Shown here: positions 108 through 24,450 of the stretch, piece after piece
How positions within the stretch are numbered: the stretch's first letter is position 1
Layout of the letters: each line of letters begins with the position of its first letter
From: a virus
Length of the DNA: 43,297 nucleotides
Strand: one strand, 5' to 3'
Virus record (IMG/VR): IMGVR_UViG_3300009079_000036
Coordinates: 1-43,297 of that record
Translations under genes and position numbers: made by a program
Notes under the pieces: model-generated
The model's database searches: none
Seen by the model: only the letters and a program-made list of their open reading frames with translations
Told to the model about the DNA's origin: nothing

Positions 108-796
108 TGAACGGATACATCTACATATTAACAGACACTCGCAACGGTAAGCAATACATTGGCAAACACAATGGTCTTAAAGAAGACTATTGGTGCTCAG
201 GTCTTGTACCAAATAGAATAGCTAATAAACATGGTCGTGAAATCTTCACAAGAGATATACTAGAAGACGGTATAAAATCTGAAGAACTACTAAACGAGCG
301 TGAGGTATTTTATATTGAAAAGCACAACACGTTTAAAAACGGTTATAACGCCACATGTGGGGGTGAAGGTGGTAACTCATGGACAAACCTTAAAACAGAA
401 GAAGAGCTTGCCAAGATAGCCCATACCAAATCTAAGAAGATGAAAAACAGAAAGTTCTCAAAAGAAACTATTGCTAAGATGAAAGCATCACACAAAGGCA
501 AGAAGCTTACTGAAGAACATAAAAAGAACATAGCAAAAGCGGTTAGACTTAGAGGTGGAATTCCACATACCGAAGAAACAAAGCGCAAGTTATCAGAATT
601 AAAAAAAGGCGTACCTAATCCTAAACTTTCTGAAATTATGAAGTATAATGTATGGAACTTACAAAAAGTTTCTATAGATGGTGTTGAATATATTTCAATT
701 GCAGGCGCAGCTAGAGAACTAAATATAAGTAAGGCCGTAGTACGATATCGCACAAAAGAAACAACAACTAATTATCCAACTTGGAAAAGACTATGA
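107..796 (+). CDS. GIY-YIG homing endonuclease with NUMOD3-type repeats
   Basis: This 229-residue protein begins with a GIY-YIG nuclease core (GYIYILTD at 3-10, then YIGK at 17-20), followed by YWCSG and a conserved-looking LNERE segment that supplies the arginine region. Residues about 113-175 hold short Lys-rich helices typical of NUMOD3 DNA-binding repeats. The C-terminus (SIAGAARELNIS near 200) resembles a NUMOD1/helix-turn-helix. Free-standing enzymes of this type make a break in a related genome and are copied by repair. The start is GTG at 107, because the ATG two bases upstream is followed at once by TGA. The stop overlaps the clpP-like ATG at 793 as ATGA. Family assignment is confident; the target site cannot be read from this window. 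Confidence 0.9.
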   Translation: MNGYIYILTDTRNGKQYIGKHNGLKEDYWCSGLVPNRIANKHGREIFTRDILEDGIKSEELLNEREVFYIEKHNTFKNGYNATCGGEGGNSWTNLKTEEELAKIAHTKSKKMKNRKFSKETIAKMKASHKGKKLTEEHKKNIAKAVRLRGGIPHTEETKRKLSELKKGVPNPKLSEIMKYNVWNLQKVSIDGVEYISIAGAARELNISKAVVRYRTKETTTNYPTWKRL

Positions 797-1458
797 ATTA
801 CGATAACGAATTTAAAAAGTATGCCATGAGTGATTGGAACGTGAGTTCATCAAACATGGATTATTACCAGAAGCAGATTGAAGCTTCTATGACACCATAC
901 ATCCTTGAAGAGCGCGAAATGCGTATGACACAGCTCGATATCTTCAGCCGACTTATGCGCGATCGCATCCTATGGGTTGCTGGTCCTGTAAATGACAATA
1001 TGTCTACTGTAGTTCAAGCTCAGTTGATGTTCTTAGATAATACAAGTAAGGACGATATCACAATGCACATCGATAGTCCAGGTGGTTCTGTAAAATCAGG
1101 TTTGTCTATGGTTGACGTAATGGAATACATCAAGTGTGATATCCGCACGGTTAATACTGGGATGGCAGCATCTATGGGTTCGGTACTTCTTGGCGCAGGT
1201 ACTAAAGGAAAGCGTGCATCGCTAAGACACTCTCGTACTATGTTACACCAATCTTCTGGTGGTTTCTCTGGAAACATTCAGGATGCGGAAGTTGATTGGA
1301 TCGAATGGCAGAAGATTAACAAAGAGCTGTTTGAATTGCTTGGCGCTTACTGCGGTAAGACTGCCACCAAAGTTGCTAAAGATGCAACTCGTGATTTTTG
1401 GTTGACCGCTGATGAAGCAGTTAAGTACGGAATCATTGATGAGGTAATCAGACGATAA
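793..1458 (+). CDS. clpP: ClpP-family serine protease
   Basis: The 221-residue protein has the ClpP fold signature. The nucleophile motif GMAASMGS places the catalytic serine at S127, MLHQ gives H152, and the RDFWLTADEAVKYG segment gives D201, so the triad is complete. IDSPGGSV at 93-100 is the substrate-binding strand motif. I chose ATG 793 over an in-frame TTG at 781 because it forms an ATGA overlap with the preceding stop. A tail of about 45 residues precedes the core. Phage ClpP proteins may act as prohead proteases or work with host ClpX-type unfoldases. The capsid-tag cassette at 9-13 kb needs a maturation protease, and this is the only serine protease in the window, but that link is inference. 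A strong terminator follows. Confidence 0.9.
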   Translation: MNYDNEFKKYAMSDWNVSSSNMDYYQKQIEASMTPYILEEREMRMTQLDIFSRLMRDRILWVAGPVNDNMSTVVQAQLMFLDNTSKDDITMHIDSPGGSVKSGLSMVDVMEYIKCDIRTVNTGMAASMGSVLLGAGTKGKRASLRHSRTMLHQSSGGFSGNIQDAEVDWIEWQKINKELFELLGAYCGKTATKVAKDATRDFWLTADEAVKYGIIDEVIRR

Positions 1459-1461
1459 CAT

Positions 1462-1534
1462 ACTCTAACACTATAAAAGCCCGGGGAGACCTGGGCTTTT
1501 TGTTATGAAACAATATTACACTCTAATACTATAA
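1462..1534 (+). repeat. Direct repeat ACTCTAAyACTATAA, two copies around the terminator
   Basis: ACTCTAACACTATAA at 1462-1476 and ACTCTAATACTATAA at 1520-1534 differ at one base of 15. The first overlaps the 5' arm of the terminator and the second lies before the gene at 1552. A shorter copy (ACTCTAAT) occurs near base 16. Function unknown. Confidence 0.5.
1475..1504 (+). terminator. Rho-independent terminator after the ClpP-like gene
   Basis: An 11-bp stem (AAAAGCCCGGG with CCTGGGCTTTT, one G-T pair) closes a GAGA tetraloop and runs directly into a T-rich tail. It ends the homing endonuclease/clpP-like transcript. Confidence 0.9.
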
Positions 1535-1551
1535 TATTAAAATAATATCAT

Positions 1552-1854
1552 ATGAACATTCTAGAAGAAGCTAACAAAATTATCAATCATCGCTCAGAAG
1601 AAAAGGAGCGCATGTATGGTCCATTTGAAGAAGGCATGCAGCGTGCAGCCATGATTGCATCCGGTATGACGGGTAAAGACTTTACAGGACCTGATATGTA
1701 TGCAGCTCTTATTGCTCTTAAGTTTAGTCGTCATTCTTATAATTATAAAGAGGACAATCTACTTGATGCCGCGGCATATATTGGTGGTCTAGATAACTAT
1801 ATTAAAAAATATGGTTACGGCAAAGAGACCAACGATACTCGCACTGAAGAATGA
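1552..1854 (+). CDS. DUF6378-like phage protein
   Basis: This 100-residue soluble protein follows the pattern of the small phage family DUF6378: an N-terminal helix with NHRSEEKERMYGPFEEG, a middle helix with MYAALIALKFSRHSYNYKEDNLLDAAAYIGGLDNYI, and a charged tail. Family members have no firmly known biochemical role; they often sit near nucleotide or DNA-metabolism genes, as here. The stop overlaps the methylase start as ATGA at 1851, so the two are probably translated together. Assignment is by recall of the conserved pattern, not a search. Confidence 0.7.
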   Translation: MNILEEANKIINHRSEEKERMYGPFEEGMQRAAMIASGMTGKDFTGPDMYAALIALKFSRHSYNYKEDNLLDAAAYIGGLDNYIKKYGYGKETNDTRTEE

Positions 1855-2744
1855 TCAAAGGACCGTTTTCATATAGCGGTAATAAGTACCGAATTTGGAA
1901 TAAGTATCTGAAGCCCGTAATGCACAAATATCAGTGTGTGCATGAGCCCTTTATCGGATCGGGCGTTTGTATCTATAATTCAAATGGAGGCGGTCAGGGT
2001 CGCGATATCAACCCACATGTGGTTGTATTGCACAATGTTCTGAAAGACCCTGGTTTAATGGACAGAGTATTAAGCACTTATGCCGAATATTTCCCGGAGG
2101 GTTGTAATGCTAAGGATAGTTATAATAAGTTGCGAGACGACTTAAATGTTCTCTATATGCAGCATGGTTTGAATAATGAAAATGCACACATGTTGTATAT
2201 TCTTATTCAGATGTCATTCAATTCTTTATTTAGATTTAGTTCAAAGGGATTCAATGCAGCGTATGTTGAAAAGCCATTTGATCCAGGTCGTATTGAACAA
2301 CATATCAAAATAGCGCAAGATAAAAACATTGATGTGGTATATGGTTCATATGAAACCCTGGACCTATCAAAGGTTGACAAGCAAAAAGATATCATATACT
2401 TTGACCCGCCATATGTGGCATCTAAGTTTCAGTATGGTGGATGGACAGACCAAGACGAACATACACTATTAGCGTATATTACCATGCTTGATAAAGAGGG
2501 TTATTCATTTATCCTATCAAACACATTTGCTCACCGCGGTGAAACCAATGACTATCTTATTGAATGGTCAAAGGCGTTCAACACATATTTGATTGATATG
2601 AGTTATAATGCGTGGGCTGCCAGGGTTAAAGCTGTTGAACGTGAGGACACAACGGTTGAAGTTATTGTCACTAATATTAATGGCGCATTCCCAGAACTTG
2701 TAAATGCGCACGATACTAAATACAAAACAGATCCAATTTTTTAA
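1851..2744 (+). CDS. dam: DNA adenine N6-methyltransferase, Dam (D12) class
   Basis: The 297-residue protein has the D12-class order. An N-terminal FSYSGNKYRIW segment and PFIGSG (33-38) bind S-adenosylmethionine, a central variable domain would contact the target, and the catalytic FDPPY motif lies at 184-188. Such enzymes transfer a methyl group to adenine N6 in a short target (GATC for Dam), and phages use them to evade restriction. The target here cannot be told from sequence. It overlaps the preceding DUF6378-like gene by 4 bases. No partner restriction enzyme is present, so this looks like an orphan methylase. Confidence 0.9.
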   Translation: MIKGPFSYSGNKYRIWNKYLKPVMHKYQCVHEPFIGSGVCIYNSNGGGQGRDINPHVVVLHNVLKDPGLMDRVLSTYAEYFPEGCNAKDSYNKLRDDLNVLYMQHGLNNENAHMLYILIQMSFNSLFRFSSKGFNAAYVEKPFDPGRIEQHIKIAQDKNIDVVYGSYETLDLSKVDKQKDIIYFDPPYVASKFQYGGWTDQDEHTLLAYITMLDKEGYSFILSNTFAHRGETNDYLIEWSKAFNTYLIDMSYNAWAARVKAVEREDTTVEVIVTNINGAFPELVNAHDTKYKTDPIF

Positions 2745-2752
2745 GGCATATA

Positions 2753-2784
2753 TTTTTTTATGTCGCCGGGATTTGCTATATTTG
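2753..2784 (+). promoter_or_regulatory. Early-type promoter P1 (T-run/ATGTCG ... TATATTTG)
   Basis: Seven T at 2753-2759, ATGTCG at 2760-2765, an 11-base spacer and TATATTTG at 2777-2784. This fits the Bacteroidota -7 consensus TAnnTTTG. Only six bases separate it from the ATG at 2791, so the transcript should be almost leaderless. Confidence 0.75.
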
Positions 2785-2790
2785 TAGTGT

Positions 2791-3210
2791 ATGAATAAGA
2801 TTAATGTTTCTGGCTTTAGCCATCAACAACGCAAAGTGCGTAGTGCAGCAGAACGGGTGGCCAAACACCTTGGCCTTACTGTCGATATTAATGTGCGTAA
2901 GCTTAAAGAAACGCGAAGCGACAAGTATGCATTTGCATATTATTTCATGGGCAACCATGGTGTATGTGTATTTGAGGATTGCCCAGATGATATGTTGCCG
3001 CTTGTGATTTCACACGAGCTTGTTCACGTACATCAAGTAAGTCGCGGCGATATGGTGTTTGACCATGAGAGTCAGACGTTTTACTGGAAAGGCGAAAAGT
3101 ATGATCTAGAAAAGTTAAATACAATATCATATTACGATAGGCCTTGGGAAGCTGAGGCAAAGGGACTTGAAAAAGACCTTGCTAAAATATACATCAACAA
3201 GAATATATAA
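2791..3210 (+). CDS. Zinc metallopeptidase-like protein (HELVH)
   Basis: The 139-residue protein carries the zincin signature SHELVHVHQ, with zinc ligands H75 and H79 and catalytic E76. A later PWEAEA segment (119-124) offers a glutamate as third ligand, the arrangement of small gluzincin-type peptidases. No signal peptide or membrane segment is visible, so it should act in the cytoplasm. The substrate is unknown. It is the first gene after promoter P1, with almost no leader, which suggests early expression on infection. It resembles other small phage peptidases in length, but I cannot name a specific family. Confidence 0.75.
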   Translation: MNKINVSGFSHQQRKVRSAAERVAKHLGLTVDINVRKLKETRSDKYAFAYYFMGNHGVCVFEDCPDDMLPLVISHELVHVHQVSRGDMVFDHESQTFYWKGEKYDLEKLNTISYYDRPWEAEAKGLEKDLAKIYINKNI

Positions 3211-9028: not shown

Positions 9029-9433
9029 ATGAAACATTTTGAAACTTTTGAAAGCTTTGTATTTGAGGCAAAAGTTGGCGCAAAAATTACTGCTAAAGTT
9101 CCAGCTCCTATGAAGAAGTTTATTCTTGGAGAACTTCAGAATGCATCAGGATGGTCGCATGAATTATATGATTTAATGAATGACATTATCAACATGCATA
9201 GAGAATATGATTTAGATCTTACACGCAATGATAGTACAGGTCCACAACCAATTACTTGGGATGAATTAAAGTTGGCAAGTGCAAATGGCACCTTTGCTGA
9301 GCGTGCTATTCAAGTGCTTAATGATGTTTGGGCTAATATGGGTGATTGGGCTAAGGAACACGTATATGCAGATTACAACGAATGGTTTAGAGTTAGCAAG
9401 AAGGATAGACCGATGTATGGCGAAACTGAATAA
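9029..9433 (+). CDS. Capsid-tagged unknown protein
   Basis: The 134-residue protein begins MKHFETFESFVFEAKVG, the first of five N-termini here matching MKxIxxFExFxxE. T4 internal head proteins start with a comparable targeting peptide (MKTYQEFIAEA) that is cut after Glu by the prohead protease; here VFE|A would be the cut. The rest is helical with Trp-rich segments (NDVWANMGDWAKEHVYADYNEW) and is not recognised. It is the first gene after the terminator and late motif. Inference: a minor protein carried inside the head. Confidence 0.7.
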   Translation: MKHFETFESFVFEAKVGAKITAKVPAPMKKFILGELQNASGWSHELYDLMNDIINMHREYDLDLTRNDSTGPQPITWDELKLASANGTFAERAIQVLNDVWANMGDWAKEHVYADYNEWFRVSKKDRPMYGETE

Positions 9434-9441
9434 TTAACAAT

Positions 9442-10137
9442 ATGAAATACATAAATACATTTGAATCATTTATTAATGAAGGTAGAAGCAGTCTTGACGG
9501 ATTGTCTTCTAAACTTACATCTGATGTATTTAAGTATTGGGTAAAAAACTATGTGGGTGGTGAAGCCAAAATTGAATATGAAACTGACGTTGATGGTCAG
9601 CTTGCGTTTGATTTAATTTGTACACTACATGTTAGTAATAAAGTTAAGGGTTTTGAAATCCTAGATTCTACAGGTGCTGATGGTCGTGCATTCGATGACG
9701 ATGGTGATGAGCAAACGCCTTATATCATTATTGATTTCGGCATTAATCCAGAGTGGTTACCGGGTGAATGGTCAACAATGTACATGTATCTTTCTGATAC
9801 AATGCGCCATGAAATTGAACACATCACACAAGACGGTCAAGAGGTTGGCAACTACAGACCTGGTAAACCGTCTGATGATGATAGCCAAGTAAGATTACTT
9901 ATTAAAATGGGCATCCTTCCACAGTCACAATATCTTATGCTTCCAAAAGAAGTTGATGCAAACCTACAGGGTTTAAGATATGAATCAAAGAAGAGAAGAG
10001 AGAGCATGTCCGATGCTGTAAATAGATACTTAGATACTCAAGAGCAAGCGGGTGTTATCGATGGTAATGAACGTGAAGCCGTACTTGATTTATGGAGAAG
10101 ACGTGCTAAAAAAATCGGGGGTATCCCACAATTCTAA
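9442..10137 (+). CDS. Capsid-tagged zinc metalloprotease-like protein
   Basis: The 231-residue protein joins a capsid-targeting-like N-terminus (MKYINTFESFINEG, predicted cut INE|G) to a zincin domain. HEIEH at 123-127 gives two His ligands and the catalytic Glu; LPKEVDAN near 167-174 offers E170 as third ligand. A β-rich region with PYIIIDFG precedes it. If it is packaged, a protease would travel in the capsid, to act during maturation or after injection; this is inference. Stop and next start overlap as TAATG at 10135-10139. A non-packaged assembly protease is the alternative. Confidence 0.75.
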   Translation: MKYINTFESFINEGRSSLDGLSSKLTSDVFKYWVKNYVGGEAKIEYETDVDGQLAFDLICTLHVSNKVKGFEILDSTGADGRAFDDDGDEQTPYIIIDFGINPEWLPGEWSTMYMYLSDTMRHEIEHITQDGQEVGNYRPGKPSDDDSQVRLLIKMGILPQSQYLMLPKEVDANLQGLRYESKKRRESMSDAVNRYLDTQEQAGVIDGNEREAVLDLWRRRAKKIGGIPQF

Positions 10138-10772
10138 TGAAACACATAAAACTTTTTGAAGCATTTAATAACGCTGAATTATATGAGTGTATAAATTCTA
10201 TCATGGATACAAATCTTTCGGACGTTGAAATTGATGCAATGCTTGACGAGGGATTATTTTCTTGGCTTAAGGGTTTATTTAAGAATCCTAAAATTAAAAG
10301 AGAACTTGATAAATTAGCTAAACAGCTTGTTGAGACTCGCGTTAGTATTGCCAAGATTGATATGGAAGAAAACAACATTGAAGAATTCGAGAATGAGCTT
10401 GAAGCACAAGATGATTTTGATCCATACTCAACTTCAACTAAAGATAAACGTCCAGGTGCTGCGATGAAATCATACAGGCCGTCTAAATCTGGTTTTGATG
10501 ATAATGATCCAACCCAAATAAAAAAGCAAGTTCTTAAGGATTTGGAAACTAATATTATTGAGCGTATGGATGAAATTGGTGAGGTCGAACCGCAATTGAA
10601 AACATATGTGAATAAAGTAAAGCTTGAATCTAGAATTCAATCAACTGAACATATCATGCGTATGGCTGATAATGATATTAAGCGTGTATTGAGTAAGATG
10701 GTTGCAAAAGATAAATCAACTGATAAAGAGCTTTCAAAAGAATTACAAAAACAATTGAATACAAATGACTAA
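10137..10772 (+). CDS. Capsid-tagged helical protein
   Basis: The 211-residue protein starts MKHIKLFEAFNNAE, close to the gene at 10896 but lacking the INE cut residues, so it may be targeted without being trimmed. It is highly charged and mostly helical, with coiled-coil-like stretches around 55-95 and 125-210 and a central Gly/Asp/Ser linker. Nothing else is recognised. It overlaps the basic 41-codon gene by 8 bases. A core or internal head role is inferred from the tag and neighbours. Confidence 0.65.
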   Translation: MKHIKLFEAFNNAELYECINSIMDTNLSDVEIDAMLDEGLFSWLKGLFKNPKIKRELDKLAKQLVETRVSIAKIDMEENNIEEFENELEAQDDFDPYSTSTKDKRPGAAMKSYRPSKSGFDDNDPTQIKKQVLKDLETNIIERMDEIGEVEPQLKTYVNKVKLESRIQSTEHIMRMADNDIKRVLSKMVAKDKSTDKELSKELQKQLNTND

Positions 10773-10890
10773 GAAGGAAATCCATAAGGCAAAATTTAGA
10801 GGCGGTCTAAGAAGCACACGTTCAAGTAAGAAAGCTTGTTTACGTATGCAATCTAATGAAGCTATCTTGAAAAAAACATTGACTAAATAA
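10765..10890 (+). CDS. 41-residue highly basic protein
   Basis: ATG 10765 opens 41 codons (MTKKEIHKAKFRGGLRSTRS, then SKKACLRMQSNEAILKKTLTK) ending at TAA 10888-10890. Lys and Arg make up about a third of residues with only two acidic ones. It overlaps the end of the previous gene by 8 bases and ends 5 bases before the next start, filling the gap exactly. A DNA-binding internal head peptide is a reasonable guess from charge and location. Confidence 0.65.
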   Translation: MTKKEIHKAKFRGGLRSTRSSKKACLRMQSNEAILKKTLTK

Positions 10891-10895
10891 TAATC

Positions 10896-11939
10896 ATGAA
10901 GCACATAAAATTATTTGAGCATTTTATAAATGAAGAACAGCCAAAATGGCATGATTCAGATGCACCGGATGCTAATGGTAAATTTAAGGAACTGAGTCCA
11001 AAAGATTTGGCGGCTTGGCTTATTGACACACGTGATGGTGATGTTCAAAGAATTTCAGGTGCACTTACACAGCAAATTGTATTCAACAGAAATGAAGATC
11101 CAGAATACGCAAGCAAAATGGAAGATACTCGTAAAGAGGTCTATAAACAATTAGGCCGTGAAGATCTACTCGAAGCTTATAATATTAATAAGTATTCTCC
11201 ATCATCTTATGCGAAACTTGTAGCTAGTGGCGGTATGTCATTTGAAGACGCTATGAAAGAATCTGGCTTGCCTTTTACGATTCTTATGAAGCTTGTGAAA
11301 AAGTATGACAAATCGTTTGCTTTATCTTTTGAAGCTGAAGCTAAGCCAGGGCCAGACGAGTATATGACAGGTCTTGATAAGGAAGAAGAAGAGGATAAGG
11401 AAGACCAGATTGCAAAGCAACGCGATATGGACGATGACGATGCTTCTGCTTATAAGGAAATGCCGGGTGATGAAGAAGCTAGAGAGAAAGGTAAGGTTAA
11501 AACATCCAAGCATGTTAAATCATACCATGAGCTTTATGGTGATAAGACAGATGAAGAGCTTTCTGATTATGAGGAGGACGATGTAGATTACGATAAGATT
11601 TACAAAAAGTATAAATATCGCAAAAGAAATGAATCTGTAGTTAATGAAGAAAAAGCAGAAGGCGATAGGGGTCCAATTGATAATCCAGATATTGAAAAAG
11701 CACTTAAGAAAAAAGAAGAAGAAACCGGTGTACCGATTGAATTTCTAAGACTTGTCATGCGAAGAGGTATGGCAGCTTGGAAGACAGGTCACAGACCAGG
11801 CGCCGGTCAAGAACAATGGGGCTATGCTAGAGTTAATTCATTTTTAACTAAGCAAGAAGGCACATGGGGTGGTGCTGATTCTGACATTGCTAAAGAGGTT
11901 CGTGATGGTGGCCACGACAATAAATTGAAATCCGCTTAA
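10896..11939 (+). CDS. Capsid-tagged DUF5824-like protein
   Basis: The 347-residue protein has three parts. The N-terminus MKHIKLFEHFINEEQ is the clearest capsid-tag copy (cut expected after INE). A long middle region (about 140-250) is very rich in Asp, Glu and Lys. The C-terminal domain near 258-345 contains FLRLVMRRGMAAWKTGHRPG and QWGYARVNSFL, the pattern I recall as DUF5824, shared by phages and large eukaryotic DNA viruses, function unknown. A second site-like string, SVVNEEK, near 244-250 precedes that domain and might release it. Inference: a scaffold or cargo protein of the head. Confidence 0.7.
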   Translation: MKHIKLFEHFINEEQPKWHDSDAPDANGKFKELSPKDLAAWLIDTRDGDVQRISGALTQQIVFNRNEDPEYASKMEDTRKEVYKQLGREDLLEAYNINKYSPSSYAKLVASGGMSFEDAMKESGLPFTILMKLVKKYDKSFALSFEAEAKPGPDEYMTGLDKEEEEDKEDQIAKQRDMDDDDASAYKEMPGDEEAREKGKVKTSKHVKSYHELYGDKTDEELSDYEEDDVDYDKIYKKYKYRKRNESVVNEEKAEGDRGPIDNPDIEKALKKKEEETGVPIEFLRLVMRRGMAAWKTGHRPGAGQEQWGYARVNSFLTKQEGTWGGADSDIAKEVRDGGHDNKLKSA

Positions 11940-11959
11940 TAAAAGCGTATAATATTAAC

Positions 11960-11977
11960 GATATATAACTAATAAAG
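11960..11977 (+). promoter_or_regulatory. GATATATA late-type promoter motif
   Basis: GATATATAACTAATAAAG lies about 20-37 bases before ATG 11997 in the 57-base gap before the acidic scaffold-like gene. Confidence 0.5.
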
Positions 11978-11996
11978 TTAAAAAAATACTTATACA

Positions 11997-13217
11997 ATGA
12001 CTAAGTTAAAATCATTTGAAGAGTATGTTGCTGATATCGATTCTGCTGAAGAGATTGAAAACACTGAGCTGGAGATGGGTGAACCAACCGAAGCTGAAGG
12101 TGAAGAAGAAGTGATTACTCAAGACCAAGAAGATGGCGGGGATTTAAGCCCAGCCGAAGTTGAAGGCGATGAGGCCGGAGAGGAGGTTGAAGATATGGAT
12201 GATACTGTTCCTTCTGATGAACAGGATGTTCTAGTAAATGGCGAAGAAGTTGACGAGGAGCCAAAAGATATCTCTGACGAAATTGAGGGTGCTGAATCTG
12301 ACGACGAAGATGAATCAGACAATGAGGACGAATCTGACGACGAGGACGAATCTGATGACGATGAAGATGTTGAAGAATCATTTGGATTTGATTTTCTTGA
12401 TGAAGCCATGAGTGATGATATCTTTATCTCTGAAGCAACAGACGACTTTGCAGGTTGGATTGCTTTTTTCAATGGTAAAAAAGTTGAAATCACAAAAGAT
12501 GAAGCTAAAGATCTTTGGGGTGCAAAGAAACTTGCTATTGCAAAAATGAAAGTGCCTAAATCAAAAGAATATATGGTAGCTATTGCACCGGCGGTTGAAG
12601 AGATGTTTATCTCTGAAGCTGAGGTTGATATTATCCCAGAAATCAATGGTGAATTCATGCAGCTTTATTCTAAGCTACATGACCTAGGCGAGGAAACTAC
12701 AGATTCTAATTGGAGAAAAGCTATTGATTCAATCATTAAAAATCTTGAAAACGTAGAGGGTAAGATTGAAGGATACGCAAAGAAATTGGGTATTGTTCCA
12801 GTACACGAGGATTCAACTATTGTAGAATCTTGTGATAAGTGCAACGAAGATCCATGTGTATGCGAATCTGAAGAGACTAAAGAAGAGGTTGCTAAAGAAG
12901 TTGCTGAAATGCTTAAAGAGTGTTATGACGCTGCTAAGAACGAAGCAAAAGCTTGGGAAGCTGATATGCACGACGAGCATACTATTGAATCTTACTTAAA
13001 AGAGAATGCGGTGCTGGTTGCTGCGTTAGCGGTCAATGCATTGAAAGAATGCAAAGAAGAAATGACGCTTGAAACATATGAAGGTGTTTGCAATGAACTA
13101 AAAGAATCTTATGCTAAGAAAATCGAAGAGCTTAAAGAATCTTTTAGTGCTGACGGCGATGAGATTGAGGTTGAAGTCAAAGCTGACAAGACACCAGAAG
13201 CTAGCGACGAAGAATAA
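11997..13217 (+). CDS. Acidic scaffold-like head protein with internal cleavage-type sites
   Basis: The 406-residue protein starts MTKLKSFEEYVAD, the most diverged capsid tag. Residues 15-128 are almost wholly acidic. Three strings then fit the T4 prohead protease rule (I/L)-x-E|A: LDE|A at 134-137, and identical FISE|A at 143-147 and 204-208. The last two flank a compact domain of about 60 residues (AGWIAFFNGKK, then AIAKMKVPKSKEYMVAIAPA), which I have the impression of seeing in other T4-like phages. A Cys cluster (CDKCNEDPCVCE at 279-290) and a long charged helical C-terminus follow. Composition suits a prohead core scaffold cut to peptides on maturation. No major capsid gene is in view to confirm this. 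Confidence 0.65.
   Translation: MTKLKSFEEYVADIDSAEEIENTELEMGEPTEAEGEEEVITQDQEDGGDLSPAEVEGDEAGEEVEDMDDTVPSDEQDVLVNGEEVDEEPKDISDEIEGAESDDEDESDNEDESDDEDESDDDEDVEESFGFDFLDEAMSDDIFISEATDDFAGWIAFFNGKKVEITKDEAKDLWGAKKLAIAKMKVPKSKEYMVAIAPAVEEMFISEAEVDIIPEINGEFMQLYSKLHDLGEETTDSNWRKAIDSIIKNLENVEGKIEGYAKKLGIVPVHEDSTIVESCDKCNEDPCVCESEETKEEVAKEVAEMLKECYDAAKNEAKAWEADMHDEHTIESYLKENAVLVAALAVNALKECKEEMTLETYEGVCNELKESYAKKIEELKESFSADGDEIEVEVKADKTPEASDEE
12297..12368 (+). repeat. Tandem 18-base repeat coding EDESDD
   Basis: Three imperfect 18-base units coding EDESD(N/D) lie within the acidic gene (residues about 101-124). They create a Ser-rich open frame on the opposite strand that is only a shadow. Confidence 0.7.
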
Positions 13218-13297: not shown

Positions 13298-13816
13298 ATG
13301 CCAAGAATTGACATACATACCGTTTATATGAATATTGCTTATTCAGTTTCTGAACTTAGTTATGCTGAGAGACGGAAGGTTGGATGTGTTATTATTAAGG
13401 ATAATCAAATTGTTTCATTTGGATATAATGGAACCCCAGTTGGTTTTGAAAATGCATGTGAAGATAATGTAATTACTAAGATTGATGTAGATTACGCAAC
13501 GTCACCGGATATTGTTAATGATCTAGAAGATAATGGCTTTAATTGCATGGATGGATGTTGTGTAAAAACAGAACATACAACTAAGCGTGAAGTACTCCAT
13601 GCAGAATCAAATGCTATAACTAAAATTGCTAAATCAACTCTATCATCTGATGGTGCAATTTTATATACTACCACAGCGCCATGTTTTGAATGTTCAAAAT
13701 TGATTATTCAATCAGGTATTAAAGAAGTATTCTATAATGAAACATATCGTGATATGAGTGGTATAGATTTATTAAATAAAGCAAATATTAATGTAACCCA
13801 AACACATGTCATTTAA
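13298..13816 (+). CDS. dCMP deaminase
   Basis: The 172-residue protein has the zinc deaminase signatures: HAE at 101-103 (zinc-binding His and proton-shuttling Glu) and PCFEC at 128-132 (two Cys ligands), plus the GYNGTPVGF substrate loop at 42-50. It converts dCMP to dUMP for thymidylate synthesis. The Cys-rich insert (NCMDGCCVK, 82-90) resembles the extra zinc site of T4-type enzymes. It follows a terminator directly, so a promoter must lie within 13218-13297 or transcription reads through. Stop overlaps the next start. Confidence 0.9.
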   Translation: MPRIDIHTVYMNIAYSVSELSYAERRKVGCVIIKDNQIVSFGYNGTPVGFENACEDNVITKIDVDYATSPDIVNDLEDNGFNCMDGCCVKTEHTTKREVLHAESNAITKIAKSTLSSDGAILYTTTAPCFECSKLIIQSGIKEVFYNETYRDMSGIDLLNKANINVTQTHVI

Positions 13817-14015
13817 TAAAGCATTTATCCCAGACCTAGAATATTTAATTAGTTGTATTGATGCAAATCCAAAGCAAGTATTTGATCAATATAAAAAAAC
13901 AGATGCATTCATGGGCCCATCAGATTCAATGATATTAATAATAGCTTTTCTAGAAACATATGAAAAAACTAATGGATCTATTCCTGAAAAGTTCACAGAA
14001 AAATACAAAAAGTAA
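13806..14015 (+). CDS. Small unknown protein
   Basis: A 69-residue helical protein (MSFNKAFIPDLEYLISCIDA) that overlaps the deaminase end by 11 bases. No motif recognised. Confidence 0.6.
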   Translation: MSFNKAFIPDLEYLISCIDANPKQVFDQYKKTDAFMGPSDSMILIIAFLETYEKTNGSIPEKFTEKYKK

Positions 14016-14016
14016 A

Positions 14017-14562
14017 ATGGAACAGGTAGAAGTTATGGAGGATAAGCAAGTTGTACGATACCAATGGATCAAGGGCGAGAAATTTGGTAATATTCAAATA
14101 GTTGCCGATGAACAACCGGAAGCACAATTTATTTACTTCACGGACGGTACACGTATTTTTAAAAATGTTTTACCAGAATTCTTGATTGAAGTTAAGAGTG
14201 ATAAAGAAGTTTTAAAAACTGATGGTGCATTGATGGCTGATGATGCACAGAATCAAACGCCAACTGTTGTAACAAATACCTCAACACCGGTTGCGGTAGA
14301 AACAGTGGTTGAGACACCCACAGTTATGGGTAATATGATTATGAAAATGAGCAAGAAAAATGTTGTTCAAATTCCAATCAATATTAATATCAATATTCCA
14401 ACGCCATCTATTTATGGCATGCTTTTGGAAGGTATGGAAGAGCAAGACTTGCAGGATGAAATTACAAAAGTGGCCCTCCAACAAATTGAGATAAATAAAT
14501 TACAGGATTACATTAAGGAAAATGTAAATACTTTTTTATCAGATTATTATTCAGACAATTAA
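14017..14562 (+). CDS. Unknown protein
   Basis: A 181-residue protein. The start at 14017 (MEQVEVMEDKQVV) sits 2 bases after the previous stop; a longer frame from 13960 is less likely. An N-terminal β-rich domain (FIYFTDGTRIFKNVLPEFLIEV, about 40-61) is followed by a Thr/Val-rich linker (about 77-103), a segment of Asn/Ile/Pro (INININIPTPS, about 125-135) and a helical C-terminus. No family recognised; the layout suggests two domains on a flexible linker. Confidence 0.6.
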   Translation: MEQVEVMEDKQVVRYQWIKGEKFGNIQIVADEQPEAQFIYFTDGTRIFKNVLPEFLIEVKSDKEVLKTDGALMADDAQNQTPTVVTNTSTPVAVETVVETPTVMGNMIMKMSKKNVVQIPINININIPTPSIYGMLLEGMEEQDLQDEITKVALQQIEINKLQDYIKENVNTFLSDYYSDN

Positions 14563-14573
14563 TTTAAACACAA

Positions 14574-14927
14574 ATGGCAAATCGTAAAGAGCGCAGATGG
14601 CAACTAAGAGTTGCAAAGATGTTACGTATTAAAAATATGTACGGACCATTCACAGAGGTCGGCCAACTATGGTATGGCAAAACCCGCGAAGAAGGCAAAA
14701 AACTATTTGAAGCAAACCGCGAGCGTGATGAGAAAAGACTTGAACTTTATTTGGCTGACAAAGAAGCTTCAATGAAATCTAATTATGAGAGTCTTGGTTA
14801 TTCCGAGGCAAAGGTTGAAAAACTGCTTGAGGGTTGGAGACTTCTTACTGTTAAGTTTGATGACACATACCGTGCTGACCGTAAGGCGGCAACCCAGCTT
14901 TTCCGCGAGGCAAGCAAAATGAATTAA
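14574..14927 (+). CDS. Unknown basic helical protein
   Basis: A 117-residue, strongly charged, helical protein (MANRKERRWQLRVAKMLRIK at the start) with long Glu/Lys/Arg helices. No recognised domain. Independent start 11 bases after the previous gene. Confidence 0.6.
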   Translation: MANRKERRWQLRVAKMLRIKNMYGPFTEVGQLWYGKTREEGKKLFEANRERDEKRLELYLADKEASMKSNYESLGYSEAKVEKLLEGWRLLTVKFDDTYRADRKAATQLFREASKMN

Positions 14928-14936
14928 TATTTTATT

Positions 14937-15263
14937 ATGCAGATTATTACACTTGAGATTGCCGACAATGGCATCATTAAAACTATTGTTGATGATAATA
15001 TCAACGGAGCCGGTGAGACTTTTGAATCAAAGGTTGTATATGACTTGGAACGTCACGATACAATTGATACTAAGATTGAAATGTTGTTTACGTTGGCTGA
15101 GGATATGGGTGTTGATCTGGGTAATTCAAAGCAAGCCGATCAAATTAAAATTATCAGCGAGTGGGGCGAGCATTATAAACCATCCGATGATGAAATTAAA
15201 GAAGCAATCAACGAGCTAAAAGCTAAGCTTGATTACTTCGAAAAATTACTACAAACTAAGTAA
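14937..15263 (+). CDS. Unknown acidic protein
   Basis: A 108-residue acidic protein with a β-rich start (MQIITLEIADNGIIKTIVDD) and a C-terminal coiled-coil-like helix (EIKEAINELKAKLDYFEKLL). Stop overlaps the next start as TAATG. An assembly or tail-linked role is possible from position only. Confidence 0.6.
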   Translation: MQIITLEIADNGIIKTIVDDNINGAGETFESKVVYDLERHDTIDTKIEMLFTLAEDMGVDLGNSKQADQIKIISEWGEHYKPSDDEIKEAINELKAKLDYFEKLLQTK

Positions 15264-15673
15264 TGAACATTATAGTTGAGTGCATTTGGTGTAATACTAA
15301 AATGGAATTTAATCGTTTTGTGAGAAATCACGACGAAAATTCTTATGTAATCAACTATATCGACATTTCTAATAAACTCATGAAGGCCGATGTGTCCTGT
15401 AAGAAACCCTCTGACAGGATGATCGGCCTTCATATTCATAATCAGCTTAAGATGTATAATTCAAAGCTGAATAAATTTGATAATCATCCTAAGACTATAG
15501 TATACCTAATTAAGCGTTTAAATAAAGAAACGATTAATGGTCTTAAAAGTACATTGGTTGATATTTTAGAAGATTGTGAAATCACCATGAATCTTACAAT
15601 CATTAGTCGTACTGATTATCCGACACGTGGTGTATTAAGCCAATTTGAAGCTGTTAAATTTATTGACAAATGA
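15263..15673 (+). CDS. Unknown protein
   Basis: A 136-residue protein with a CIWC pair near the N-terminus and alternating strands and helices. It is joined to its neighbours by TAATG (15261-15265) and ATGA (15670-15673) overlaps, so the three genes are probably co-translated. In T4-like phages, small tail-tape or baseplate chaperones are often found in such places; this one is not recognised. Confidence 0.6.
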   Translation: MNIIVECIWCNTKMEFNRFVRNHDENSYVINYIDISNKLMKADVSCKKPSDRMIGLHIHNQLKMYNSKLNKFDNHPKTIVYLIKRLNKETINGLKSTLVDILEDCEITMNLTIISRTDYPTRGVLSQFEAVKFIDK

Positions 15674-16266
15674 TACATCATAGAATATTTCCAAAAGGGG
15701 AATATTGTCATGCGTTAATATCCAGCCGATCAAACCCCAACGTTTTATTTCAAGTACGTGGCCTTATTTATGATGTGGCCATGGACCCATATAATCCACA
15801 ATATCTTATTAAGATAATCAGGTTCTATGATGATATCAATTTCATTAAACGCTATATGTTTAACCAAAAGTTTCAACGAGACTTTTTAGGACACGATACA
15901 ACATTTGCATTTAATAGAAATTCATTCAATACAAGAGAAGACTTTGAACAGCATTTACAAAATCATAAGAGTGTTGAAAAATACATGGTGGTTGTTGATT
16001 CTGTTATGTGCACAAAGACGCTTGCCGATTCAACAAAATTATATAATGAAATTGAATCCTTTCTTATTGAAAAATCCATAAGAGATATTTTTGATGCAGT
16101 TACTCGTACACAGTATAGAAGCGGTAAATATGCATTTAATAACCGGGATGAATTTAGAACAGCGCTCAAGCGATTTTTAAAAGATAAGATAGATGTTACC
16201 GAGGAATATCTTGATGATATTTTAAGCAGACCAACCTTTGAAGATTTAGATGATATAGGTGCTTGA
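15670..16266 (+). CDS. Unknown protein before the tail genes
   Basis: A 198-residue protein, β-rich at the start (GLIYDVAMDPYNPQYLIKIIRFYDD) and helical and charged after residue 80. Its stop lies at the edge of the GATATATA motif at 16265. The last gene before the baseplate block; an assembly factor is possible but unsupported. Confidence 0.55.
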   Translation: MIHHRIFPKGEYCHALISSRSNPNVLFQVRGLIYDVAMDPYNPQYLIKIIRFYDDINFIKRYMFNQKFQRDFLGHDTTFAFNRNSFNTREDFEQHLQNHKSVEKYMVVVDSVMCTKTLADSTKLYNEIESFLIEKSIRDIFDAVTRTQYRSGKYAFNNRDEFRTALKRFLKDKIDVTEEYLDDILSRPTFEDLDDIGA

Positions 16267-16295
16267 TATATAGTATAAATAATAAAGCTATATAT
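16265..16295 (+). promoter_or_regulatory. Late-type promoter inside an inverted repeat over the start codon
   Basis: GATATATAGTATAA matches the motif at 8990. TATAAATA at 16274-16281 is the T4 late -10 sequence. ATATATAG (16266-16273) and CTATATAT (16288-16295) form a perfect 8-bp inverted repeat whose right arm covers the AT of the ATG at 16294. Confidence 0.65.
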
Positions 16296-18144
16296 GGGCG
16301 TAATTGATTCAGTTGGCGGCTGGTTATATGATGAAGCTGGATCCCTTAAAAAATGGGGTACTACACAGTATTACGATGCTAAAGCGTGGGCACAACGAAA
16401 GAAGGACGAGGCCGAAGCATCTAAAGATGGCCAAACCATTACCAAGTCTTTTGATCATTTTATAGAGCAATCAGAAGGTGGTGTAAGTATTTTTTTTAAT
16501 AAATTAACCGGCGAAAGAATTACGGGGGCTGCCGCTATTAAGCTAAGGGCTGAAATCGCCGCGGCCGGTGGTATACCAACAAACACAACATTTATTAGTC
16601 CAGGTTCTGTTGAGCCGGGTTTTGCTGATACACGCGCCGTGTACTCTGCGACTGCGCCGTCTGAATCTTATAAGGTTGAAACGCCGGGTAAGGCAAATGG
16701 CGGTAATGGTACAGATAGTGCTGGTACGACTATTCCTGGTAAACCAGACGTACCATTTTCTCTGTTCAACCATTGGTCACTTATGAATTATGTTGGTGGG
16801 CCACTTGATACAATCTCAAATGCCGACTACAATAAACCACTTAATGCTGGTCAAGATCTAACTGATTATAGAAACCCAAGCGCAACAAGAATTATTGATT
16901 GGGCCAAAGAGAAGAATAACCCAGGATACCAATGGTCATTTGCGGATTTTGCTATGGCTAAATACTATGGTAAGGTATCTAATAATTATATGGTTACGTT
17001 GAGAAGATTCCCTATGCCGGTTGAAGATAATATTATTAATCCAATGGTTATTGGACCAGGTGGAGAAACTGTTAACAATGGCATGCCAGATATTGCACGT
17101 GCTGTAACGTGGATGGACGAAACTATTGGCAATAAACTTGAAGATATTTTAAAGTTTGATGTGAGCACTGTATGGGAAGAGGTTAAATCTGAAATCCAAG
17201 AAATACAGGGTGGCGAAAAGAAAGGTGGTAAGCTTGGTGAAATGATTGGTGGTAACTTCTTTGCATCTGCTGCTTTAGGCGCTGCGAATGGAATGGATGC
17301 TAGTCAAATACAGGCGGCAAATAGCGGCTATGATGCTACAAAGGGTACATATCCAAACCACGTATTTGGTCCTATCAACATTATTGATAAGGTAATGGTT
17401 AGAAAAGCTGGTCTTGATTTTACGGGCGACATGTCCCTAACGTTTCATTATAGCTTAAGACAACTTGATGGTGTATCGCCGAAAATTGCATTCTTAGATT
17501 TACTGGCAAACATGTTAGTGCTTACATATAATAATGGTAACTTCTGGGGTGGATCAACTAGATATACTGGTGGTGCGCAAGGTATGAATCAACCATTTGG
17601 TGACTTTAGTAAATTAAAGTCTGGTGACTTTGGTGGTTTCTTGGGTTCTATTGTTGGTGACGTATTTGGTAAGGTTGGTAATATTGTTGCTGATATCAAA
17701 GAGAATGGTATTATGGGTAATAAGTTTACACAGAATATAATCGGCGGCGGACTTATGGATTTATTTGGTACTCCACAAGGTGGTGAAGCTATTAAAGCAT
17801 TTTTGACTGGTGATCCTACTGGTCAATACCATGTAACTATTGGTAATCCAATGGCGCCTATCGCTACGATTGGTAACTTATATTGTGATAAGGCGGACTT
17901 TAAGTTTGGCGGTGAAATGTCATACGAGGGTTTCCCGACTGAATTAACTGTTGTTGTTTCGCTAAAGCCAGCTAGACCGAGAGATAAGGCGGACATTGAA
18001 AGAATGTTTAATGGTGGTAGAGAACGTATGTACCTAACACCGGAAGGCGGCGTTAATACTAATAACAGTACAAACAATTCAGTTTATGGTAATGCAGATA
18101 CACCGCATCAAGCTGGTATCTATAGAAAAATGGCTAACGGATAA
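16294..18144 (+). CDS. Virion (tail/baseplate) structural protein
   Basis: A 616-residue protein with an N-terminal helical region, a Gly/Ser-rich linker (about 95-145) and a long mixed domain. Residues about 511-575 contain YHVTIGNPMAPIATIGNLYC, then FPTELTVVVSLKPARPRDKADIERMF, a pattern I associate with tail-tube or baseplate-tube proteins of large myophages. It is the first gene of the baseplate block, just before the gp53-like gene, with its own late-type promoter. A gp48/gp54-like role is a guess. Stop overlaps the next start as TAATG. Confidence 0.65.
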   Translation: MGVIDSVGGWLYDEAGSLKKWGTTQYYDAKAWAQRKKDEAEASKDGQTITKSFDHFIEQSEGGVSIFFNKLTGERITGAAAIKLRAEIAAAGGIPTNTTFISPGSVEPGFADTRAVYSATAPSESYKVETPGKANGGNGTDSAGTTIPGKPDVPFSLFNHWSLMNYVGGPLDTISNADYNKPLNAGQDLTDYRNPSATRIIDWAKEKNNPGYQWSFADFAMAKYYGKVSNNYMVTLRRFPMPVEDNIINPMVIGPGGETVNNGMPDIARAVTWMDETIGNKLEDILKFDVSTVWEEVKSEIQEIQGGEKKGGKLGEMIGGNFFASAALGAANGMDASQIQAANSGYDATKGTYPNHVFGPINIIDKVMVRKAGLDFTGDMSLTFHYSLRQLDGVSPKIAFLDLLANMLVLTYNNGNFWGGSTRYTGGAQGMNQPFGDFSKLKSGDFGGFLGSIVGDVFGKVGNIVADIKENGIMGNKFTQNIIGGGLMDLFGTPQGGEAIKAFLTGDPTGQYHVTIGNPMAPIATIGNLYCDKADFKFGGEMSYEGFPTELTVVVSLKPARPRDKADIERMFNGGRERMYLTPEGGVNTNNSTNNSVYGNADTPHQAGIYRKMANG

Positions 18145-21936: not shown

Positions 21937-23040
21937 ATGCCAGAAAGAATAGTAGCCCCAAATAGTGGTGTACCGATGTCTAATAGCAATGGTGGTACAC
22001 AGGAGACCGGTGGTGATCAAACACAGGGCGGCGGTGCCGCAAATCCAGGTGTTGGTTCGGTTGGTACTTCAGGTACTTCTAATGCCCCTAGTTCATCTAG
22101 TGCTTCAAATGATTTAATGCTTGCCGAACTTACAAGTGCTATTACGGCTTATTTAGCAGTTGGTGCTATCTTACCGGGTGATGATTTTATCATGGACTTG
22201 TATATGGATAATAAGCTTGGTTTTAAAACAATTGAAAAAGACTTAGAGGAAGCTAATCCTGAAGTTGATAAAAAGACTATTAAAGATTTAGTAAAAGCTG
22301 AGAAAGAAAAGACTAAGGCATTTTTACAGGGACCTGGTAAGGCAGCATTTAAGGATAAGCTTGATCAATTAAAGATTGAGATTAAAGATATGCAAAGTAC
22401 TATGGGTAGTGTTGCACAAGAGGTAACTATGTCTATCACGGATGCCTTCATGCCACCGGTTGTTGGACCAGTAGCTCCAAACCCACTAAGTAGTGTTTTG
22501 AAAATTAGTCTTAAGATTATTGCAATTAAAACTAAGATTGATATTGTACTTGCCGGTGTATTAGTTGTATTAAAACTTATGGATGAGCTTGGACTTGGTG
22601 AACATAGGGCTGTAACAGATATAGTTCAACTTGCAGCACCTATTGTAAGAGTACAGCAATCATTAAAAGATGCTTTTGCTAAAGCTGAAAAAGAAGCTAA
22701 GAATTCAGATGATGGTTATAAAACCGAACACCCTGAAGCCGGCGGTGGTAATATTGAAGAGGGTGCTACAATAACAGGTCAAGAAATTCAGATTGAAGCA
22801 CAGTCAAGATATAGCGTTAATGGTGAATGGCCACTTAAGAAAAAGAACCGTAAAGCTGTTAAGAAATTAGTAAATAGCTCTGACGAGATTGAAGCGGAAT
22901 GGGGTGAATTATTCCAGAGCTATAACGAATGGCTAAAGGTTCCGCAACCACAAATCGTTTCATCTGGCAATCGGGCATTTGCCGCGGGTAGTTATAACCC
23001 CGATAATGTAGGACAAATTGGCGGTCGCCCGGGTTCTTAA
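21937..23040 (+). CDS. Unknown virion-associated protein
   Basis: The 367-residue protein has a Gly/Ser/Thr/Asn-rich disordered N-terminus (about 1-58), a helical, charged middle, a hydrophobic stretch near 188-215 (VLKISLKIIAIKTKIDIVLA, then GVLVVLKLMDELGLG) that might contact membrane or pack in a helical bundle, and another Gly-rich tail. It follows the spike by 3 bases. No family is recognised; the position suggests a hub or membrane-contact role. Confidence 0.6.
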   Translation: MPERIVAPNSGVPMSNSNGGTQETGGDQTQGGGAANPGVGSVGTSGTSNAPSSSSASNDLMLAELTSAITAYLAVGAILPGDDFIMDLYMDNKLGFKTIEKDLEEANPEVDKKTIKDLVKAEKEKTKAFLQGPGKAAFKDKLDQLKIEIKDMQSTMGSVAQEVTMSITDAFMPPVVGPVAPNPLSSVLKISLKIIAIKTKIDIVLAGVLVVLKLMDELGLGEHRAVTDIVQLAAPIVRVQQSLKDAFAKAEKEAKNSDDGYKTEHPEAGGGNIEEGATITGQEIQIEAQSRYSVNGEWPLKKKNRKAVKKLVNSSDEIEAEWGELFQSYNEWLKVPQPQIVSSGNRAFAAGSYNPDNVGQIGGRPGS

Positions 23041-23053
23041 CTTTAAAAAATTG

Positions 23054-23071
23054 ACCCTATAAAAATAGGGT
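23054..23071 (+). terminator. Hairpin, possible terminator
   Basis: ACCCTAT and ATAGGGT form a perfect 7-bp stem with an AAAA loop, in an 87-base gap. The + side is AT-rich but lacks an immediate T-run; the - side has TTTTTT close by. It may be a weak or reverse terminator, or an mRNA structure before the S1-like gene. Confidence 0.45.
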
Positions 23072-23127
23072 ATATAATGTATAATTTATTATTTATTTTT
23101 ATTCACCTTTTTATTTAAACCAAAAAA

Positions 23128-24450
23128 ATGGAAAACAAAAAAAGAGAACGTATCAGCAAAAGAAAAGTTGAAGTTCAAACAGAGGATGTACAACTCTTAA
23201 ACGAAGTACAAGAAGACGATTTCGAACTAACCCTGGAAGGTAACCATGATGAGTATAACTTCATCCTTCCTAATGGTGAATTTGATTGGGACGGTTACGA
23301 AGCGCATCACAACCACAAGCTAAAACCTAATCATAAGGTTAAGACGCTAAACCACAAACACATTGTTTATTCACACGCATCAAATGCACAGGAGATGTAC
23401 AACATGTACAACAATGCTTCATTCCATTTGGATGAAATCTGTGAACTTGTTGAAGGGTCTATTATGACTGGTAAGCTTCATTCTATGTCTACTAGATGGG
23501 CAACGGTTGATGTAAACTATAGAGAAATGTTGTATATCGACTTGTCTCGTGAAGACCGTGATGTTATTGCGGATTACAGACCAGGTGATGAAGTATCTGT
23601 AAAGGTTCTTAGTGATAAGACTCAAGCACGTGAATATGCACTTGCATCAATTACTGAAGGTGCTAAGCAAGTTATATTTGCTGAACTTAGAATGGCAGCT
23701 GACGAAGGTGGTACTGCATTTATGGGTAAGGTTACTTCAATGATTCCAGGCGGTGGTTACATTGTTAAGGTTCAAGGTATTGAATGTTTCATGCCAGGTT
23801 CACTAGCAGGTATCAATAAGCTGGCTGATTTTGAATCAATCGTCGGTACTGAAATGTATGTTGTGCCTGATTCATTCTCTGCTAAGCGTGGTACTATTGT
23901 GGTCTCACACAGAGCTTATCTACAAGCTATGATTCCAAAAATGATTGGTGAGCTTGAAAACAATTTGGACGCAGTACAGAAGGGTTTTGTGACCGGTACG
24001 GCTAAGTTTGGTGTCTTCTGTGAATTCAATAACTGTTTGACAGGTATGATCCACATTAATGACCTAAGTCCAGAATGGTCTGCCAAGCATAAGAATAATT
24101 CAATCGAACCAGGTGATGAAATTGAATTTAAGATTAAGGAGATTGTTAATAACAAGAAGATTATCCTTACTCAAATTGAACAGGTAGAAGTTAAGGAAGA
24201 CAACTCTTGGGAAGAGTTCACAAAAGATTTGCAAATTCCATCTGTAGTTACAGGTAAGATTAGATCTGTAAAAGACTACGGCGTATTTGTTGGTTTACAT
24301 GGAACTATCACTGGTATGGCACACGTATCTAACTTTGAAAAGAATATTTCATTGACTGAAAGATTTACAAAGGGTGACGAGGTTGCTGTCGAAATTACCA
24401 AGATTGACAATGATACGAAGAAGGTTTTCTTAAAGGTGGTTGGGGCTTAA
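23128..24450 (+). CDS. Ribosomal protein S1-like protein with four S1 domains
   Basis: The 440-residue protein carries four S1 (OB-fold) RNA-binding repeats, at about 108-176, 195-262, 284-352 and 371-437. The last two are classical (GFVTGTAKFGVFCEFNNCLTG and GKIRSVKDYGVFVGLHGTITG). The first 105 residues are not S1-like: a basic start (KKRERISKRK), an acidic stretch and a His-rich segment (EAHHNHKLKPNHK). Bacterial bS1 helps the small subunit bind mRNA, above all where Shine-Dalgarno sequences are weak, as in Bacteroidota and this phage. A viral S1-like protein could favour phage mRNA; that is inference. It sits between tail genes after an 87-base gap, so it is probably expressed late. Confidence 0.85.
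   Translation: MENKKRERISKRKVEVQTEDVQLLNEVQEDDFELTLEGNHDEYNFILPNGEFDWDGYEAHHNHKLKPNHKVKTLNHKHIVYSHASNAQEMYNMYNNASFHLDEICELVEGSIMTGKLHSMSTRWATVDVNYREMLYIDLSREDRDVIADYRPGDEVSVKVLSDKTQAREYALASITEGAKQVIFAELRMAADEGGTAFMGKVTSMIPGGGYIVKVQGIECFMPGSLAGINKLADFESIVGTEMYVVPDSFSAKRGTIVVSHRAYLQAMIPKMIGELENNLDAVQKGFVTGTAKFGVFCEFNNCLTGMIHINDLSPEWSAKHKNNSIEPGDEIEFKIKEIVNNKKIILTQIEQVEVKEDNSWEEFTKDLQIPSVVTGKIRSVKDYGVFVGLHGTITGMAHVSNFEKNISLTERFTKGDEVAVEITKIDNDTKKVFLKVVGA

Follow-up and report, generated by a model that had tools for sequence, protein, structure and literature searches.

Phage T4 carries a short capsid-targeting sequence on IPI, IPII, IPIII and Alt (Mullaney and Black, 1996; reviewed in PMC9026906 and PMC3012670). 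In the tag of IPIII, MKTYQEFIAE, residues 4 and 7 control targeting and residues 8 and 10 processing, and Asp at residue 10 blocks processing while targeting is unaffected (PMC9026906). Cleavage by the T4 protease gp21 takes place after L/I-x-E, and the T4 core proteins are cleaved to pieces by the same enzyme. Two other systems resemble the locus described here in part. In SPN3US and phiKZ a gp21 homologue removes N-terminal propeptides of head proteins after Glu and there are many ejection proteins, but the propeptides are mainly longer than 100 residues and have no common short tag (PMC5694885). In P1 an N-terminal signal packages the anti-defence Dar proteins, 30 residues of DarB being enough for a reporter, although the N-termini of the Dar proteins are without consensus (PMC9024508).

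The tagged cassette

The window, by which we mean the whole stretch of DNA that was analysed, is a fragment, 43,297 bases long, of the genome of an uncultured T4-like phage. It encodes T4-type baseplate wedge, hub and head-tail adaptor proteins, and is colinear with 12.7-54.8 kb of a 125-kb contig, G004 (41 gene matches, median identity 67%). Among named records, the baseplate protein was closest to LR756500, an uncultured 462-kb phage, and to Prevotella Lak phages, and further matches include Tenacibaculum and Chryseobacterium phages; from these relatives, Bacteroidota are the likely host group. The initial annotation had described five consecutive open reading frames at 9029-13217 in which a common N-terminal tag precedes bodies that are unrelated. 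All five were found in place with ATG starts, and the bodies, taken without the first 13 residues, gave no mutual match with E<0.5. The features are as follows:

9029-9433, plus strand: protein 1, tagged, 134 aa, pI 5.1
9029-9067, plus strand: tag of protein 1, MKHFETFESFVFE, then A; predicted cut after Glu13; PSSM score 19.3
9442-10137, plus strand: protein 2, tagged putative zinc metallopeptidase, 231 aa, pI 4.7
9442-9480, plus strand: tag of protein 2, MKYINTFESFINE, then G; predicted cut after Glu13
10137-10772, plus strand: protein 3, tagged, start MKHIKLFEAFNNA, 211 aa, pI 5.0
10137-10187, plus strand: tag of protein 3, MKHIKLFEAFNNAELYE; cut site absent at positions 11-13, displaced candidate LYE with cut after residue 17
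10896-11939, plus strand: protein 4, tagged, C-terminal DUF5824 domain (residues 272-328), 347 aa, pI 5.0
10896-10934, plus strand: tag of protein 4, MKHIKLFEHFINE, then E; predicted cut after Glu13; PSSM score 32.1
11631-11648, plus strand: tag-like internal site ESVVNE in protein 4; candidate cut after residue 251, directly before the DUF5824 domain
11997-13217, plus strand: protein 5, tagged, acidic, 406 aa, pI 4.1; Asp replaces the cut-site Glu
11997-12035, plus strand: tag of protein 5, MTKLKSFEEYVAD; targeting half kept, predicted uncut

The tags were scored with a profile (PSSM) built from other phages, the window's own population being excluded. The five scores were 32.1, 25.4, 21.8, 19.3 and 15.2 bits, the best of 263 internal methionines in the window reached 8.6, and every other gene stayed below 6. 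Chance is excluded as the origin of the tags, since they far outscore both controls. Two aromatics three residues apart, F7 and F10 or Y10, are present in all five tags with the spacing of Y4 and F7 in T4, and the layout F7, F10, I/V11 and E13 corresponds to the mutationally mapped positions of IPIII. The likeness to T4 comprises a short N-terminal tag ahead of unrelated bodies, the spaced aromatics, followed in three of the five tags by I/V-x-E, and a gp21-type protease and gp23 in relatives. The tag sequence itself is different. Moreover, T4 internal proteins are basic, whereas the cargo here is acidic, with pI 4.1-5.1 in all five proteins; the window proteins do not share the basic, DNA-associated character of IPI-III and, being acidic, would not be retainable through DNA association.

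Cutting after Glu had also been proposed. The canonical site, [I/V]-x-Glu, closes the tags of proteins 1, 2 and 4, but not that of protein 3, where positions 11-13 are N-N-A, nor that of protein 5, where they are V-A-D. The orthologue of protein 3 in G004 (22570-23160, 56% identity, start MKHIKLFEQFELNPLYE) retains LYE. Asp is likewise found in the G004 orthologue of protein 5, which starts MAKLKSFEEYVADID; because Asp at the cut position blocks processing in T4 but not targeting, protein 5 is predicted to be packaged uncut. It has candidate internal sites at 12404 (FLDE before A), 12434 (FISE before A) and 12617 (FISE before A). At the counterpart locus of G004 there are orthologues of the metallopeptidase and of proteins 4, 3 and 5 in altered order, and protein 1 is missing, with no homologue found in that contig. 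The five-gene cassette is variable content within a stable neighbourhood. Pfam and PHROG scans of proteins 1, 3 and 5 gave chance-level matches only, and protein 4 matched PF19141 (3.6e-15) and phrog_3041 (3.5e-18).

The initial annotation counted a protease among the five, and for protein 2 this stands as far as its HExxH motif, HEIEH at 9808-9822. In an alignment of 17 members of the metallopeptidase group H123, E124 and H127 were invariant, and so was Glu13. The AlphaFold model (pLDDT 79) places HExxH within a predicted helix. Known families gave no Pfam hit and no PDB fold match with E<0.05, and for lack of a fold match no peptidase family is claimed; by its HExxH motif, protein 2 is a putative zinc metallopeptidase. 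One orthologue, at L166, is without tag. In fused forms the tag is replaced by an upstream domain and the Glu with its cut site is retained at the junction. Thus, in L041/L042 the metallopeptidase domain is C-terminal in a 984-residue protein and follows DESLNE, with GRYDT directly after, and in Flavobacterium phage immuto GRYDT is preceded by VMAE.

The junctions bear on the thought that the destination of tagged proteins is not the head but, for example, the membrane, the tail or a compartment resembling the phage nucleus. Very large phages are among the tagged ones, and special compartments can occur in jumbo phages. However, a site of prohead-protease type ends the tag and persists at the junction of proteins that have lost the remainder of it, and the tag is found on a gene of the head module; for sorting by itself, such a site would be superfluous. 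We regard another destination as highly unlikely.

The tag in other phages

A DNA pattern search of IMG/VR, with only MKHIKLFExF fixed and the later positions left free, matched at least 120 stretches and gave at least 121 distinct N-termini, nearly all of them true starts. Among the matches listed, position 11 was I, V or L in 83 of 121, and position 13 was Glu in 89 and Asp in 13 of the 121. [ILVM]xE occupied positions 11-13 in 75 of 118 of the matches listed, against 3.3 on average and at most 11 in 500 shuffles. Where the site was missing there, it reappeared a few residues later (SSLNE, SKLNE, LNE) in 11 of 42 listed, with 2.4 expected. Since the displaced site recurs downstream when it is not adjacent, the two halves of the tag, one for targeting and one for cutting, can be separated. 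The plain motif [VIL]xE was not enriched inside tagged proteins, and its density was dropped as evidence.

Altogether 278 tagged proteins were collected and fell into 130 sequence clusters (families), including 85 singletons. An alignment of 68 cluster representatives had the consensus MKxxKxFExFxxE and hardly any conservation beyond; MKHIKLFEQFINE is a tag sequence with F7, F10 and E13. Single lineages have tags of their own. More than 20 genes of LR756500 (loci L302-L321) start like MKYIKEYEEFLLEA or MKYIKEYEEFLLE, in the form MKYI(K/L/Q)xYEEFLLE, while a similar pattern occurs at 2 of 1,517 internal methionines. In L060, a separate phage, gene series at 198-3061 and 13315-18046 start MK[APS]LNEFLNES or similar, e.g., MKPLNEFLNE. 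Such uniformity within a genome suits a tag that would be read by the phage's own core. The numbers also differ from T4 with its few tagged proteins: five in 43 kb here, 18 in 110 kb in G003 and the more than 20 of LR756500. Separately, several genes in immuto, L001 (9149-9697 and 22974-24274), and in L333 (1803-2318) have a common start, FDLKKFLVENKLT, perhaps another type of tag.

Tags are more similar within genomes than between genomes, which could also be expected if the common start were a by-product of recombination or translation initiation, i.e., copied 5' ends with no sorting role. Synonymous codons inside the tag vary freely, however: among the matches listed His is CAC in 59 and CAT in 54, and Leu is CTA in 50 and TTA in 48. 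Selection is therefore at the protein level. In addition, the key residues of the tag are those important in T4, and the Glu is retained in fused proteins far from start codons. Copied 5' ends are accordingly an exceedingly improbable explanation.

Head genes and the proposed fate of the tagged proteins

No prohead protease gene was found within the 43-kb window, itself a fragment. An S77 (T4-type) prohead protease and gp23 are encoded in the four largest protease-bearing relatives, G001, G002, G004 and G008. The protease is the N-terminal portion of a protein of 670-820 residues, the remainder being scaffold-like with repeated [VIL]AE, and the counterpart in PTm1 is annotated as scaffold-and-protease. 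The fusions of the protease with this apparent scaffold are located as follows:

G001, 111307-113367: protease-scaffold fusion
G002, 147160-149622: protease-scaffold fusion
G004, 96060-98207: protease-scaffold fusion
G008, 75099-77120: protease-scaffold fusion

A conserved internal Met in these fusions (NMAEFVKSEDFNKYS) is a possible start of a scaffold-only product. The protease on contigs L365-L368 is closely similar to the one in G004, and these contigs may be the absent head region of the window's phage population; no overlap between them and the window was found. The MCPs (gp23) of the relatives have a conserved KLYE before (E/D)A as a candidate cut site.

The tag was sought among the head genes of related phages, as the initial annotation had suggested, and is present on a small acidic ORF between portal and protease. 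This ORF starts with the tag (MKIIKTFEDFITED etc.) in almost every one of some 36 distinct relatives; with one common body the ORFs are orthologues, and are to be counted as one gene, not 36. In L363/L364 a tagged cargo gene (MKHVKLFEQFLNEG) lies between protease and MCP. PTm1 and HTVC008M were scanned as possible cultured members of the tagged group, and no tag was found above background. As both have a T4-type protease, a head of this type does not automatically come with the tag.

The first reading of the tags as capsid-targeting sequences gains support from the T4-mapped residues, from protease and gp23 in relatives, from the tag on the core gene next to the protease, from the kept cut-site Glu and from the lineage-specific tags. 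On this comparative evidence we consider it highly probable that the common N-terminus is a T4-type capsid-targeting sequence, for core docking, cutting by the prohead protease and ejection with the DNA. Docking, packaging, cutting, ejection and early action are the steps that we infer. The spaced aromatics, F7 and F10 or Y10, would dock the proteins on the scaffolding core, and docking would lead to incorporation of unrelated proteins in the prohead. The prohead protease, a gp21 homologue which is scaffold-fused in relatives, would cut behind the Glu of the terminal [I/V/L]-x-E of the tag. The cargo, freed inside the head, would be ejected with the DNA and take effect as infection begins. Cuts after Glu13 are expected in proteins 1, 2 and 4, with an additional one at ESVVNE (residue 251) in protein 4; in protein 3 the probable cut is after LYE (residue 17). 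Protein 5 would be packaged with its tag retained, or be a core protein.

The last case leads to a broader possibility, namely that the tag binds the assembly core and that tagged proteins are core or scaffold parts consumed in maturation, not cargo. Indeed, among tagged genes conservation is highest for the small acidic ORF next to the protease, all five window proteins are acidic with protein 5 (pI 4.1) scaffold-like, and fragmentation of core proteins by gp21 is known from T4. Core proteins should be conserved, yet the 130 families vary among near relatives, and content and order of the cassette differ between the window and the colinear G004. Many enzymes and anti-defence proteins are found among the tagged, which is consistent with delivery. 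We find a general role as consumed core parts unlikely, though some of the tagged proteins may be such parts. Most likely, the tag serves to load the phage head with unrelated proteins that are then delivered to the next host cell, because five neighbouring genes of the window start with it and it recurs in related phages on many proteins of unrelated sequence, anti-defence proteins among them.

Probable cargo and possible polyproteins

Tagged proteins include DUF5824, cytidylyltransferase, zeta-like kinase, ATP-grasp, GNAT, Tad3 and 2H phosphodiesterase. In G003 the tag is present on each of five adjacent genes at 69478-71644 (loci L167 and L172). Two of them encode Tad3 and an Acb1-like 2H phosphodiesterase; the remaining three are candidate counter-defence genes. 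The G003 copy of Tad3 consists of the tag and a stretch ending ESLNE right before the Tad3 domain, and the copy in G001 is untagged. The model of the 2H protein matches 2H phosphodiesterases, including phage Acb1 and a poxvirus cGAMP phosphodiesterase. Its score against the Acb1 Pfam is modest (1.5e-6), and "Acb1-like" denotes resemblance. The anti-defence proteins among the tagged recall T4 IPI*, which acts against a host defence nuclease; inhibitors of Thoeris and CBASS type, present here in a few genomes, are a difference from T4.

A further difference is the occurrence of fused cargo proteins with multiple sites, along with a protease fused to scaffold. Two proteins, at G002 56186-60199 (1,337 residues) and G004 70382-73609 (1,075 residues), have several ES[FVK][VI][NT]E sites each. 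In six genomes all 18 internal occurrences of this motif were in tagged genes or adjoining ORFs, the neighbour criterion having been set post hoc, and the reversed motif occurred 6 times. Repeats of the wider form ES[FVK][VI][NTSG]E were likewise confined to tagged genes and the ORFs that adjoin them.

For a large group of T4-like and huge phages, mostly related to Bacteroidota phages, we see an even chance of a modular first-strike delivery, in which a lineage tag would admit almost any gene, with payload of anti-Thoeris and anti-CBASS type, and in which several effectors could travel as a single polyprotein, to be separated in the head by the prohead protease. That T4 carries such tagged internal proteins is known already; our literature search found no report of such scale, lineage tuning or polyprotein link. 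A virion-cargo tag would gather many unknown phage genes into one defined class, with products that are delivered along with the DNA. Exact mature N-termini can be predicted from it, and it offers a packaging handle for phages distant from T4. It is also a lead to new counter-defence proteins, with several tagged genes adjoining Tad3 and the Acb1-like enzyme.

Some minor observations can be added. A putative amidoligase (PF12224) lies amid the baseplate genes of the window at 24508-25812, and relatives have the tagged ATP-grasp proteins. Two cargo ORFs of great length, at L055 9512-13525 and L032 11092-13695, contain repeated ESVVNE/ESVVTE sites; the former also has internal MKYVKPLNE/MKYVKPLYE, resembling fused tagged genes.
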